From Acetivibrio sp. MSJd-27 (GTDB taxonomy: Bacteria; Bacillota; Clostridia; UMGS1840; HGM11507), in contig NZ_JAHLPV010000010.1 of NCBI RefSeq assembly GCF_018918095.1, positions 1 through 64,000 of the forward strand: a stretch of 64,000 nucleotides of DNA, given 5' to 3'. Under the pieces are notes generated by a model that was given only the letters and a program-made list of their open reading frames with translations, did no database searches and was not told where the DNA came from. A program made the position numbers and the translations under genes. Shown here piece after piece: positions 35,218-44,407 of this stretch. The stretch's first letter is position 1; every line of letters begins with the position of its first letter.

Positions 35218-35272
35218 TTGACTTTTTGGGGTTCAATTAGTATAATTAATTTGTGGAGTTCAGAAAGTGAGG
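35218..35272 (+). promoter_or_regulatory. Promoter and operator-like repeat of RHH gene 1
   Basis: TTGACT (35218-35223), a 17-base spacer and a perfect TATAAT (35241-35246). ACTTTTTG (35221-35228) overlaps the -35, and its near-complement CAGAAAGT (35261-35268) lies past the -10 and abuts the GAGG of the SD. The repeat is imperfect (7 of 8), but the layout equals that of RHH genes 2 and 3. Confidence 0.6.
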
Positions 35273-35279
35273 TGTTACC

Positions 35280-35450
35280 GTGAGTCCACGTACCGGCAGA
35301 CCAAAAGCAGACAATCCCAAAAAATATGACATCAAGGTTCGTTATGACGAAGAAACACATAAAGCACTCTTAGATTACTGTAAAAAGCATAACATCACAC
35401 GGGTTGAAGCATTCAGAAGAGGATTACAACTGCTGTTCGGTCAAAAATAA
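35280..35450 (+). CDS. Small ribbon-helix-helix regulator 1
   Basis: 56 aa, starting at GTG with the SD GTGAGGTG 5 bases before it. The N-terminus SPRTGRPKADNPKKYD carries the GRP..NPK motif shared with the proteins at 35669 and 44180. A strand (IKVRYDEET) and two helices (HKALLDYCKKHN, TRVEAFRRGLQLL) follow, which is the ribbon-helix-helix (CopG/Arc) plan. RHH dimers bind DNA through the paired strand; the GRP arm resembles an AT-hook core. It probably represses its own promoter. No toxin gene is beside it. Confidence 0.8.
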   Translation: MSPRTGRPKADNPKKYDIKVRYDEETHKALLDYCKKHNITRVEAFRRGLQLLFGQK

Positions 35451-35590
35451 AAGGAAGCAGCGCTCCCCTCAGAAAGGCACGCTACTTCCCCCAACACACA
35501 GCCGTCTCGCAAGACAGCGATGCAAAAATATTGTACCATTTGTATCCGCATTTTGCAAGGGGCTGTGATGAAATAACCGAAAGGATTGAT
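35451..35590 (+). repeat. Three-way-junction element, copy R1
   Basis: A ~140-nt element directly after RHH gene 1, near-identical to 35847-35987. A first hairpin has arms starting GGAAG and ending CTTCC. Then stem P1 CACAGCC (35497-35503) with GGCTGTG (35561-35567) encloses P2 GTCT/AGAC (35504-35515) and P3 TGCAAAA/TTTTGCA (35521-35557). It ends with an SD-like GAAAGGA, which here is followed only by a 7-codon frame. This could be a regulatory RNA leader, a processing site or a mobile unit. Confidence 0.65.
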
Positions 35591-35608
35591 GGAAGCTAAA
35601 AATAGAAG

Positions 35609-35660
35609 TTGACTTTTATGGGTAGGTATGTTATGATATTAGTGACCCATAAAAGTGAGG
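35609..35660 (+). promoter_or_regulatory. Promoter and operator of RHH gene 2
   Basis: TTGACT (35609-35614), a 17-base spacer and TATGAT (35632-35637). A perfect 12-base inverted repeat, ACTTTTATGGGT (35612-35623) and ACCCATAAAAGT (35645-35656), spans from the -35 to just past the expected start site; the second arm touches the GAGG of the SD. A protein binding both arms would block RNA polymerase, and the RNA could also pair. The likely ligand is the RHH protein itself. Confidence 0.75.
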
Positions 35661-35668
35661 TGAAACCA

Positions 35669-35845
35669 TTGGGCAAAAAAAAGATGGGGCGACCTACAGA
35701 CAATCCCAAAGACATTTCGCTGAAAGTGCTCTTGGATAATGACACGGCGCAAAAACTTGAAGAATGTTCTCAAGTTTTAAAGGTATCAAAAGCAGAAATT
35801 ATGCGGCGGGGTGTCCATGAGATACATAAAAGGTTGCCAAATTAA
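35669..35845 (+). CDS. Small ribbon-helix-helix regulator 2
   Basis: 58 aa, starting at TTG, chosen by its SD (GTGAGGTG, 6 bases before) and alignment with RHH gene 1. The N-terminus GKKKMGRPTDNPKD has the shared GRP..NPK motif. A strand (ISLKVLLDNDT) and two helices (AQKLEECSQVLK, SKAEIMRRGVHEIH) follow. It probably binds DNA as a dimer and controls its own promoter. It arose with R2 by tandem duplication of an RHH-plus-element unit, although protein identity with RHH1 is modest. Confidence 0.8.
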   Translation: MGKKKMGRPTDNPKDISLKVLLDNDTAQKLEECSQVLKVSKAEIMRRGVHEIHKRLPN

Positions 35846-35846
35846 A

Positions 35847-35987
35847 AAGGAAGCAGTGTCCCCTAAGCAAAAAGCACACTACTTCCCCCAACACACAGCC
35901 GTCTTACAAGACAGCGATGCAAAAATATTGTATCATTTGTATCCGCATTTTGCAAGGGGCTGTGATAAAATAACCGAAAGGATTTGA
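35847..35987 (+). repeat. Three-way-junction element, copy R2
   Basis: Second copy of R1, with about four differences over the last 110 bases. Pairing is kept: P1 CACAGCC (35894-35900) with GGCTGTG (35958-35964), P2 GTCT/AGAC (35901-35912), P3 TGCAAAA (35918-35924) with TTTTGCA (35948-35954). In the first hairpin a C-G pair of R1 is a T-A pair here, a compensatory change. The element's terminal AAAGGA serves as the SD of the gene at 35994. Confidence 0.65.
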
Positions 35988-35993
35988 TTTTTA

Positions 35994-36274
35994 TGATCAT
36001 CAGACAGCTCAAACCAAACGATTTCAAGTTTATCTTGAAACAGCTTATCGAGAAAGCACAGCAAAATCCGCTGGACGCCAGCTTCAATGTAAACATGACG
36101 GTAAACAGCACGGAGTACTGTATAAAAATCCAGCCGGAGGGCTGCAATAAACTGGCCGTTCTTCAAGCATATCAGATCGAGCGGGACGAGTACGGCCACC
36201 TGCACGAGCTCATCACCGACAACAATATCCTCTCCGCCCTGCTGGAGCTTCTGCTGCGGCAGAGGATGTATTGA
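35994..36274 (+). CDS. Unknown protein downstream of R2 (93 aa)
   Basis: 93 aa, no signal peptide or membrane segment. The sequence MIIRQLKPNDFKFILKQLIE suggests an alpha/beta start; the C-terminus is a helix NILSALLELLLRQRMY. I do not recognise a family. The SD (AAAGGA, 10 bases before the ATG) lies at the end of the R2 element, so expression is physically tied to it. A strong terminator follows 13 bases after the stop. It may be the functional partner of the RHH regulators. Confidence 0.6.
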
Positions 36275-39835: not shown

Positions 39836-39865
39836 AACGGCAGGCCGGGAGCCTGCCGTTTTGGT
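39836..39865 (-). terminator. RNase P RNA terminator
   Basis: Stem AACGGCAGGC/GCCTGCCGTT with a 5-base loop, followed by TTTTGTTGCC on the minus strand, directly after the RNase P RNA 3' end. Confidence 0.92.
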
Positions 39866-39867
39866 GG

Positions 39868-40198
39868 GCGAGCAAATCGTAAGCCGAGTTCTGTCGTGGG
39901 TAATCATCTATCTGGGACGCACATCGCTGCGCGCCTCAAGCCGCCACCCGGGAGATTGTCGGGCCAACTTAATTCTCCGCTTTCGGCGTTGCTCCAGGTG
40001 GGGTTTACACCATCCCTTAGTTACCTAAGGGATCCGTGAGCTCTTACCTCACATTTTCACCCTTACCATAAAATATGGCGGTTCTTTTCTGTTGCACTTT
40101 CCTTAAAGTTACCTTCACCAGACGTTATCTGGCACCCTGCCCTGTGGAGCTCGGACTTTCCTCACCTTTTAAAAAGGCGCGATTACCTGATTTACTCT
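39868..40198 (-). ncRNA. rnpB: RNase P RNA (catalytic RNA of tRNA 5' processing)
   Basis: Read on the minus strand, the 5' part contains the universal GAGGAAAGTCCGAGCTCC and the 3' part ACAGAACTCGGCTTACG. The centre has GGGTGAAAATGTGAGGTAAG, the conserved core of bacterial RNase P. The ends pair as helix P1 (GAGTAAATC with GATTTGCTC). About 330 nt, and the loop pattern fits type A, as usual in Clostridia. The 5' end is set from the promoter and may be off by a few bases. Confidence 0.95.
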
Positions 40199-43763: not shown

Positions 43764-44036
43764 TTATTCAGCTTTTTCTATCATTGTCGCCAGCAGAATC
43801 TGTATGCCCAGACGGAAGCCCTGCGCAAAAGCGGAGGTCAGTTCTTCCACCGTGATCTGGCATCTTGCGTTTGTATATTCCGCATAGAGCTGTTCCTGTT
43901 TTTCATCCAGACTGCTCTCAAAATCCTGTCCTATCTTAATGGATTTCTCAACCGCTTCCTTATATTCTACGCTGGCCGGATGAAGCTGTTCAAAGGGCAG
44001 AACTTTCCCGAAAAATAATTCTCTTAAAATGTTCAT
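43764..44036 (-). CDS. DUF6809-like protein
   Basis: 90 aa from the ATG at 44036, with an AAGGAAG SD about 9 bases before it. MNILRELFFGKVLPFEQL, a central helical region and the C-terminal AFAQGFRLGIQILLATM match the DUF6809 pattern as I know it (a helical protein with a conserved start and a FxxGFRLG end). The function is unknown. It follows the third RHH regulator by about 140 bases on the same strand, as the 93-aa gene follows RHH2, so it may be the target or partner of that regulator. Confidence 0.65.
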   Translation of the reverse strand: MNILRELFFGKVLPFEQLHPASVEYKEAVEKSIKIGQDFESSLDEKQEQLYAEYTNARCQITVEELTSAFAQGFRLGIQILLATMIEKAE

Positions 44037-44137
44037 TTGATCATCTTCCTTTCTTTTTTGTGCACAAACTGCTTGAAAGAAAGGGATACATAAGGTATAA
44101 TATTTCATGTACCTCTGCTTTTGCAGTTGGTGCAGTG

Positions 44138-44176
44138 GGAAGTTCGGACTTGCTTTGCCGAGGAAGCCGGACTTCC
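44138..44176. other. Hairpin after RHH gene 3
   Basis: On the minus strand, GGAAGTCCGG pairs with CCGAACTTCC across an imperfect stem right after the RHH3 stop. Like the first hairpin of R1 and R2 it opens with GGAAG and closes with CTTCC. No T-run follows on the coding strand, so it is not a normal terminator. Confidence 0.5.
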
Positions 44177-44179
44177 TTT

Positions 44180-44350
44180 TCATTTGTTTTTGAGGCCGTC
44201 AATCGCATCCCTTATTCCATCCGCTCTGCCTATCTGTTTTTTCTCACAGTAGTCGTCTAGTGTTTGTAAGCTTTCATCGCTTACTCTGACAGTCAGTTTG
44301 TTGGGTTTCGGATTATCGGTTGGTCTCCCCATTTTTGGTTTGTCGCTCAA
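44180..44350 (-). CDS. Small ribbon-helix-helix regulator 3
   Basis: 56 aa starting at TTG, with GGAGG 7 bases before it. The N-terminus SDKPKMGRPTDNPKPN carries GRPTDNPK exactly as in RHH2. A strand (KLTVRVSDESL) and two helices (QTLDDYCEKKQI, RADGIRDAIDGL) follow. It is a RHH DNA-binding protein, probably dimeric and autoregulatory. The longer frame to 44407 starts inside the promoter and is rejected. It is paralogous to the tandem pair about 8.5 kb away. Confidence 0.82.
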   Translation of the reverse strand: MSDKPKMGRPTDNPKPNKLTVRVSDESLQTLDDYCEKKQIGRADGIRDAIDGLKNK

Positions 44351-44357
44351 ATAGCCA

Positions 44358-44407
44358 CCTCCTTTTGTCGACAAAACTATTATAAACCATATGTCGACAA
44401 AAGTCAA
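44358..44407 (-). promoter_or_regulatory. Promoter and operator of RHH gene 3
   Basis: On the minus strand TTGACT (44402-44407), a 17-base spacer and a perfect TATAAT (44379-44384). The perfect 12-base inverted repeat CTTTTGTCGACA/TGTCGACAAAAG occupies 44392-44403 and 44362-44373, bracketing the -10. The downstream arm overlaps the first base of the GGAGG SD (44358-44362). Each arm also contains the palindrome GTCGAC. The geometry equals that of RHH gene 2. Confidence 0.78.

Follow-up and report, generated by a model that had tools for sequence, protein, structure and literature searches.

The joint action of a ribbon-helix-helix (RHH) repressor and an antisense RNA on one gene is known from individual textbook examples, P22 and pMV158; the Arc protein of P22 is an RHH protein. 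The c4 RNA matures from the very transcript that carries its target and is not made from the opposite strand, and it is not known to have an RHH partner. In P22, the small antisense RNA sar lies on the opposite strand between arc and ant and represses the synthesis of the antirepressor, and the c4 RNA of phages P1 and P7 exerts antisense control over an antirepressor (PMC12197685). In pMV158, RNAII originates in the gap between copG and repB, from an extended -10 promoter to an intrinsic terminator at the copG end, and the translation of RepB is controlled (PMC4485353).

We describe a locus within a 64,000-nucleotide stretch of DNA from Acetivibrio sp. MSJd-27 (the window), where two non-coding elements, R1 and R2, each directly follow an RHH-type reading frame (Table 1). 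The two are near-identical, as initially annotated (91.6% over 143 columns), and a genome search found no further near-identical copies, so that R1 and R2 are the only two. Layout, promoters, terminators, covariation, gene linkage and complementarity, all read from the sequence, indicate that R1 and R2 are very probably antisense RNA genes of about 80 nt, each part of a unit of RHH repressor, antisense RNA and cargo gene in which the antisense RNA would repress the cargo. The initial annotation had seen a structured non-coding element, probably functional, and that part stands; it had read the element as a three-way-junction leader and overlooked the minus strand, where the strong features sit, and an antisense RNA gene on that strand is the better reading.

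As in the immunity I region of P22 (arc-sar-ant), the RHH repressor comes first and points in the same direction as the cargo, and a predicted antisense RNA gene, recognized by its promoter, its terminator and covariation, occupies the gap. The cargo in P22 is an antirepressor, and the phage relatives of the locus include Rha, BRO, ORF6N and AntA, whereas the window's 93-aa protein does not count among the known antirepressors. An antisense RNA of the arc-sar-ant type would be expected to cover the cargo's ribosome site, whereas the window's predicted antisense RNA stops before the Shine-Dalgarno site, with a predicted start about 55 nt upstream of it, and leaves the ribosome site uncovered. 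The host of P22 belongs to a different phylum, and the likeness is one of layout.

The window likewise shares with pMV158 (copG-RNAII-repB) an RHH repressor (CopG in the plasmid) and a gap antisense RNA with its promoter and terminator between the stop codon of the repressor gene and the cargo. As a positive control, our promoter scan located TTGCTT-17-TATAAT behind copG, its -10 box at 56 nt past the stop codon; CopG itself gave a marginal match to the RHH profile, and the RNA models of this family did not match RNAII. The pMV158 cargo is a replication initiator, whereas neither the 93-aa protein nor the phage cargos match a Rep family, and RNAII is 48 nt long with a single hairpin, whereas the window RNAs have two. 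The counter-transcribed RNA ctRNA_pT181 (RF00242) does have two hairpins, like the relatives described below. Its Rfam model matches the same span and strand in five of them, namely L103 (45.7 bits, E 0.003, the best), L074, L051 and two annotated records, at 33-46 bits, all below the gathering cut-off of 56 bits, and does not match R1 or R2 at E<=5. The layout is already known from P22 and pMV158; the Firmicutes family is apparently unreported, as we found no description of an RHH-antisense family from Firmicutes among open-access papers.

Predicted antisense transcription units in R1 and R2

Each copy carries on its minus strand an extended -10 sigma-70 promoter, followed downstream by a small hairpin and then by a long hairpin with a T-run that falls within the final codons of the RHH gene; together they form a predicted transcription unit, short but complete, that runs antisense to the gap separating RHH gene and cargo. 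The promoters match 9/12 consensus bases, below most relatives, and their predicted -10 boxes lie 85-87 nt behind the RHH stop codon. What had been annotated as the first hairpin of the element is the predicted terminator of this minus-strand RNA; read on the plus strand, it has no T-run behind it. The compensatory change reported there is real, a C-G pair in R1 (GGAAGCAGCG/CGCTACTTCC) becoming T-A in R2 (GGAAGCAGTG/CACTACTTCC). On the sense strand, the apex of the long hairpin coincides with the -10 region of the antisense promoter. R1 is trailed by seven codons only (ATG GAA GCT AAA AAT AGA AGT TGA), as first described, and the start of the 93-aa reading frame, previously placed at 35994, is corrected to 35993.

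Table 1. Features of window positions 35218-36274 and of a separate module elsewhere in the window
Feature	Position	Strand	Remarks
RHH1 promoter, TTGACT-17-TATAAT	35218..35246	+	11/12 consensus matches
RHH1, 56 aa, phage-type (MSPRTGRP...) ribbon-helix-helix repressor (predicted)	35280..35450	+	phrog_876 E 1.8e-13; 64% identity to viral homologue in L043
Element R1	35451..35587	.	91.6% identical to R2
Predicted antisense RNA 1 promoter, TTGCAA-17-TACAAT, TG before -10	35530..35558	-	same place in viral loci
Predicted antisense RNA 1 (start inferred)	35442..35523	-	hairpin 35518-35501; terminator hairpin 35489-35453; U-run within RHH1 end
Seven-codon remnant ORF MEAKNRS behind R1	35589..35612	+	overlaps RHH2 -35 box; read from sequence
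RHH2 promoter, TTGACT-17-TATGAT	35609..35637	+	promoter + operator candidate span 35609..35656
RHH2 operator candidate, 12-bp palindrome	arms 35612-35623 and 35645-35656	+	
RHH2, 58 aa, TTG start	35669..35845	+	phrog_876 E 3.7e-11; 81% identity to RHH in G068
Element R2	35847..35984	.	91.6% identical to R1
Predicted antisense RNA 2 promoter, TTGCAA-17-TACAAT, TG before -10	35927..35955	-	
Predicted antisense RNA 2 (start inferred)	35838..35920	-	hairpin 35915-35898; terminator hairpin 35886-35849; U-run within RHH2 end
Shine-Dalgarno site AAAGGA of cargo gene	35977..35982	+	read from sequence
Cargo gene, 93 aa, function not assigned by any family match	35993..36274	+	homologues 41-58% identity, seven class genomes
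Predicted antisense RNA of separate module of the same kind	44103..44187	+	its RHH within 44180-44407, minus strand

A DNA-level similarity search of plasmids and phages returned nothing useful, and the matches of R2 DNA in the 391 genomes of the class were mostly short and near chance; the loci used here come from protein and covariance searches, not from those matches. We rejected as chance an 18-base match in front of a Fur-like gene (G000:C2), where there is no element, and six unrelated matches from an 18-mer pattern scan of GTDB contigs.

Relatives in phages

With RHH1 as the query we obtained 80 viral loci, or 59 once near-duplicates were taken out; RHH2 and the 93-aa protein had no matches in the viral contigs. 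The combination of an RHH gene with a minus-strand unit is present in most of the 59 non-redundant loci. Minus-strand promoters scoring at least 10/12 occur in 63% of them; the plus strand reaches this score in 8%, and dinucleotide shuffles do so in 1.7%. At a score of at least 11/12 the corresponding values are 34%, 1.7% and 0. The -10 box mostly starts 66-85 nt past the RHH stop codon, with a 17-nt spacer, and the predicted transcripts fold as a short hairpin followed by a terminator hairpin. For covariation we used a subset of 19 phage antisense RNAs, since a larger, diverse set of 39 aligned too poorly in MAFFT to be analysed with RNAalifold. In the subset, 10/11 base pairs have changed on both sides, and the covariation score is 0.625; shuffles score 0.369 +/- 0.032 and slid partners 0.13-0.28. 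The covariance-model search that the initial annotation had named as a check thus finds further copies, with covariation, in other genomes.

The module is also present in four annotated records, all of which the RNA model recognizes (E 6e-13 to 3e-5): Streptococcus phages Javan197 and MismyG, Fusobacterium phage phiFN37 and a Clostridioides difficile plasmid. The predicted control unit is widespread in Firmicutes phages and often stands upstream of antirepressor genes. RHH plus antisense control would be a portable and very diverse module of Firmicutes phages, phage-plasmids and clostridial chromosomes, and many antisense RNAs are to be expected in phage antirepressor operons. Second antisense matches of the phage model in already-positive viral loci (L110 462-529, L106 911-972 and L099 2217-2290, all on the minus strand) make several modules per phage likely. 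In viral locus L053, downstream of 3168, two RHH genes follow one another, and the space separating them lacks an antisense element. Viral loci of the same set also contain Rfam skipping-rope RNAs (two in series) and GP20-b RNAs (L058 1301-1524, L103 4985-5041, L177 2912-2974).

Relatives in clostridial genomes

A covariance model built from phage loci only was searched over the whole 64-kb window and gave, at E<=10, exactly two matches, R2 (E 0.57) and R1 (E 1.2), both on the minus strand and correctly in register. Each match is weak singly; their joint placement at R1 and R2 is hard to ascribe to chance. A second model, built from 14 clostridial elements and including the RHH gene for its last few codons only, found 37 places in 10/391 genomes of the class, among them all eight elements of this genome, and an RHH reading frame ends at the terminator in 21/23 inspected places outside it. 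The clostridial model reaches only 2/59 phage loci. The phage and clostridial sets are therefore linked by layout, by RHH kinship and by the phage model's weak matches to R1 and R2, and not by strong similarity of RNA sequence.

Besides R1 and R2, this genome has six further elements, and the RHH family occurs with the same layout at five more loci (C5, C11, C8, window 44103-44187 and C21), of which C21 holds one copy with an RHH gene and one orphan copy. At E<=0.001 the RHH family is absent from the other eight genomes of the order, and horizontal arrival is therefore likely. The best PDB matches of the RHH, the archaeal RHH structures 2kel and 2k9i, are weak. The orphan antisense element (L129 1220-1310, G000:C21) has neither RHH nor cargo, lies right behind a secF-like gene and just upstream of an intact module, and differs much from its neighbour in the terminator hairpin only. 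The other module of the window (43764-44407) is arranged as RHH, antisense RNA and cargo on the minus strand, between V-type ATPase subunit genes and other genes, and its cargo is a DUF6809-like reading frame (MNILRELFFGK...). The window also encodes a bacterial RNase P class A RNA (39865-40198, minus strand).

Tandem arrays and divergence of their parts

Arrays of RHH, antisense RNA, RHH, antisense RNA and a gene of the 93-aa type recur at G281 C7 and C12 and at G167 C38 and C33, and in 5/5 arrays (one in the window, two in G281 and two in G167) the upstream unit has no cargo gene of its own. The seven codons behind R1 had been read as if a downstream gene had been lost on duplication; an upstream unit without cargo describes the arrangement better. 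The proposed tandem duplication of the RHH gene does not hold, as RHH1 and RHH2 are 29% identical and have separate close relatives, one in phages and the other clostridial; the block was therefore not copied whole, and the modules are mosaic. The gene conversion suggested earlier fits this mosaic pattern of RHH genes and elements: the identity of R1 and R2 to one another is 92%, but that of each to the G068 element is about 72%.

The same discordance appears between G281 and G167, where three orthologous RHH pairs are 93-100% identical with antisense elements at 86-88%, a fourth pair (C7a/C33a) has elements 93% identical and RHHs 61%, and the two elements within one tandem are 84-90% identical with RHHs at 53-62%. 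RHH gene and antisense RNA therefore have partly different histories, which may reflect exchange of RHH genes, homogenization of the antisense RNAs, or both. Across six tandem pairs, changes fall on 31/115 positions of the terminator-hairpin apical loop and on 40/624 others (odds ratio 5.4, Fisher p 2e-9), with the pairs not all independent and 167C38a/b showing the opposite. Since many antisense RNAs first contact their targets by loops, the loop changes look like a divergence of specificity; the dull alternative is relaxed constraint on the loop.

Taken jointly, these patterns allow a tentative reading, which we hold to be possible but rather doubtful, in which tandem RHH-antisense units would control one cargo gene through channels that are still evolving and partly orthogonal. 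The RHH, with its operator specificity, would be exchanged, the antisense core homogenized and the recognition loop diversified to set cross-talk, a divergence we liken to that of plasmid incompatibility groups; the cargo-less R1 unit would serve as an extra trans-acting source of antisense RNA and as immunity against incoming elements with the same module. Paired modules of this family are expected to form natural series whose repressors and recognition loops change at different evolutionary rates.

Proposed mechanism

We infer that the antisense RNAs are transcribed, that the RHH protein represses itself and that the antisense RNA represses the cargo. Transcription would run opposite to the RHH-cargo operon, from the extended -10 promoter to the intrinsic terminator at the RHH stop codon, while the RHH protein would bind a palindromic operator to repress the operon that encodes it. 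By pairing with the leader that separates RHH from cargo, the antisense RNA would lower cargo expression. The promoter palindromes differ between the RHHs, with 12 bp at RHH2 and no clear palindrome at RHH1, as expected if each represses itself with a separate operator specificity. The window has two of these predicted units in series before a single cargo gene; their RHHs differ, and their antisense RNAs are nearly identical.

In most relatives the leader is predicted to fold into a long hairpin with two alternative partners for its 3' arm, the antisense-covered part and the cargo's Shine-Dalgarno site, so that antisense binding would free the 3' arm and the arm would hide the ribosome site. 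Among the viral loci, and in most of the paralogues, this arm pairs with its own antisense-covered 5' arm at -19.0 kcal/mol, compared with -9.8 kcal/mol for exchanged partners, and with its own Shine-Dalgarno site at -11.3 versus -7.6 kcal/mol (0/5000 permutations). When the antisense-covered part is blocked, the predicted accessibility of the Shine-Dalgarno site falls from 0.28 to 0.13 across 56 viral loci (Wilcoxon p 8e-10), and a drop is also predicted in C5, C11, C10b, C8 and C21b of this genome. For R2, the predicted accessibility stays at 0.53 (0.53 to 0.53), and the pairing of its arm with the Shine-Dalgarno site is no better than with exchanged partners. The modeled accessibilities therefore make an antisense-triggered ribosome-site switch likely for the family, where it is expected in most members, and leave it unsupported for R2, where RNase cleavage of the duplex or transcription attenuation may be the mode instead.

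Alternative explanations

A structured leader on the sense strand, riboswitch-like or an attenuator, could control the cargo in cis, with the minus-strand signals incidental. The sense strand does fold well too (z about -4 and -3.5), and its long hairpin with an anti-Shine-Dalgarno arm is conserved. However, a cis leader needs no minus-strand promoter and terminator, and many loci have both in the right order and at the right distance; the missing plus-strand T-run also speaks against it, and the same arrangement in pMV158 is a proven antisense RNA (PMC4485353). The three-way junction, which was the form originally proposed for such a leader, is 7.5 to 23 kcal/mol less stable than a long rod-like hairpin in all eight elements of the genome. 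We therefore regard a cis-acting leader as unlikely. A plain recent duplication of a spacer without function, its likeness reflecting age only, would explain why no cargo stands behind R1 and why the genome holds just two near-identical copies, but we rate it as very improbable: the mosaic flanking RHH genes, the retention of promoter, terminator and pairing in distant relatives, and the concentration of differences in the apical loop all run against it.

The third possibility, that the RHH protein is the antitoxin and the 93-aa protein the toxin of a type II toxin-antitoxin operon, draws on the frequency of RHH antitoxins, on the small cargo gene that comes next in the same direction and on the occurrence of the modules as solitary islets among housekeeping genes. 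The 93-aa protein, however, has no match to a toxin family (Pfam, NCBIfam, PHROGs) and no fold match. In the relatives, this front end stands before genes that are unrelated to one another, antirepressors being frequent among them, a pattern that points to a general unit for the control of expression; we hold a toxin-antitoxin operon to be quite unlikely.

Cargo genes

Antirepressors make up about 1/4 to 1/3 of the cargos in 55 phage relatives: Pfam assigns ORF6N to 5, Bro-N to 4, and Rha, AntA and P22_AR_N to 3 each, some of these on one protein, and a single PHROG anti-repressor family has 13 members. For the 93-aa protein of the window, neither family searches (Pfam, NCBIfam, PHROGs) nor a fold search gave an antirepressor identity, and its predicted structure (pLDDT 82) has no solved or viral match at E<=0.001. 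Its homologues stand directly behind an RHH gene and antisense RNA in L137, L139, L140 and L141; the contig of L136 ends within the element, and L138 and L142 have no RHH in the stretch read. Small phage cargos of 56-75 aa (L048, L085, L100, L103, L105, L108, L096, L111, L097 and L044) have a common C-terminal motif like GFRFGYMQGMKAAKAE or a variant of it (FxxGxxxG), and possibly form one unnamed family of small proteins.
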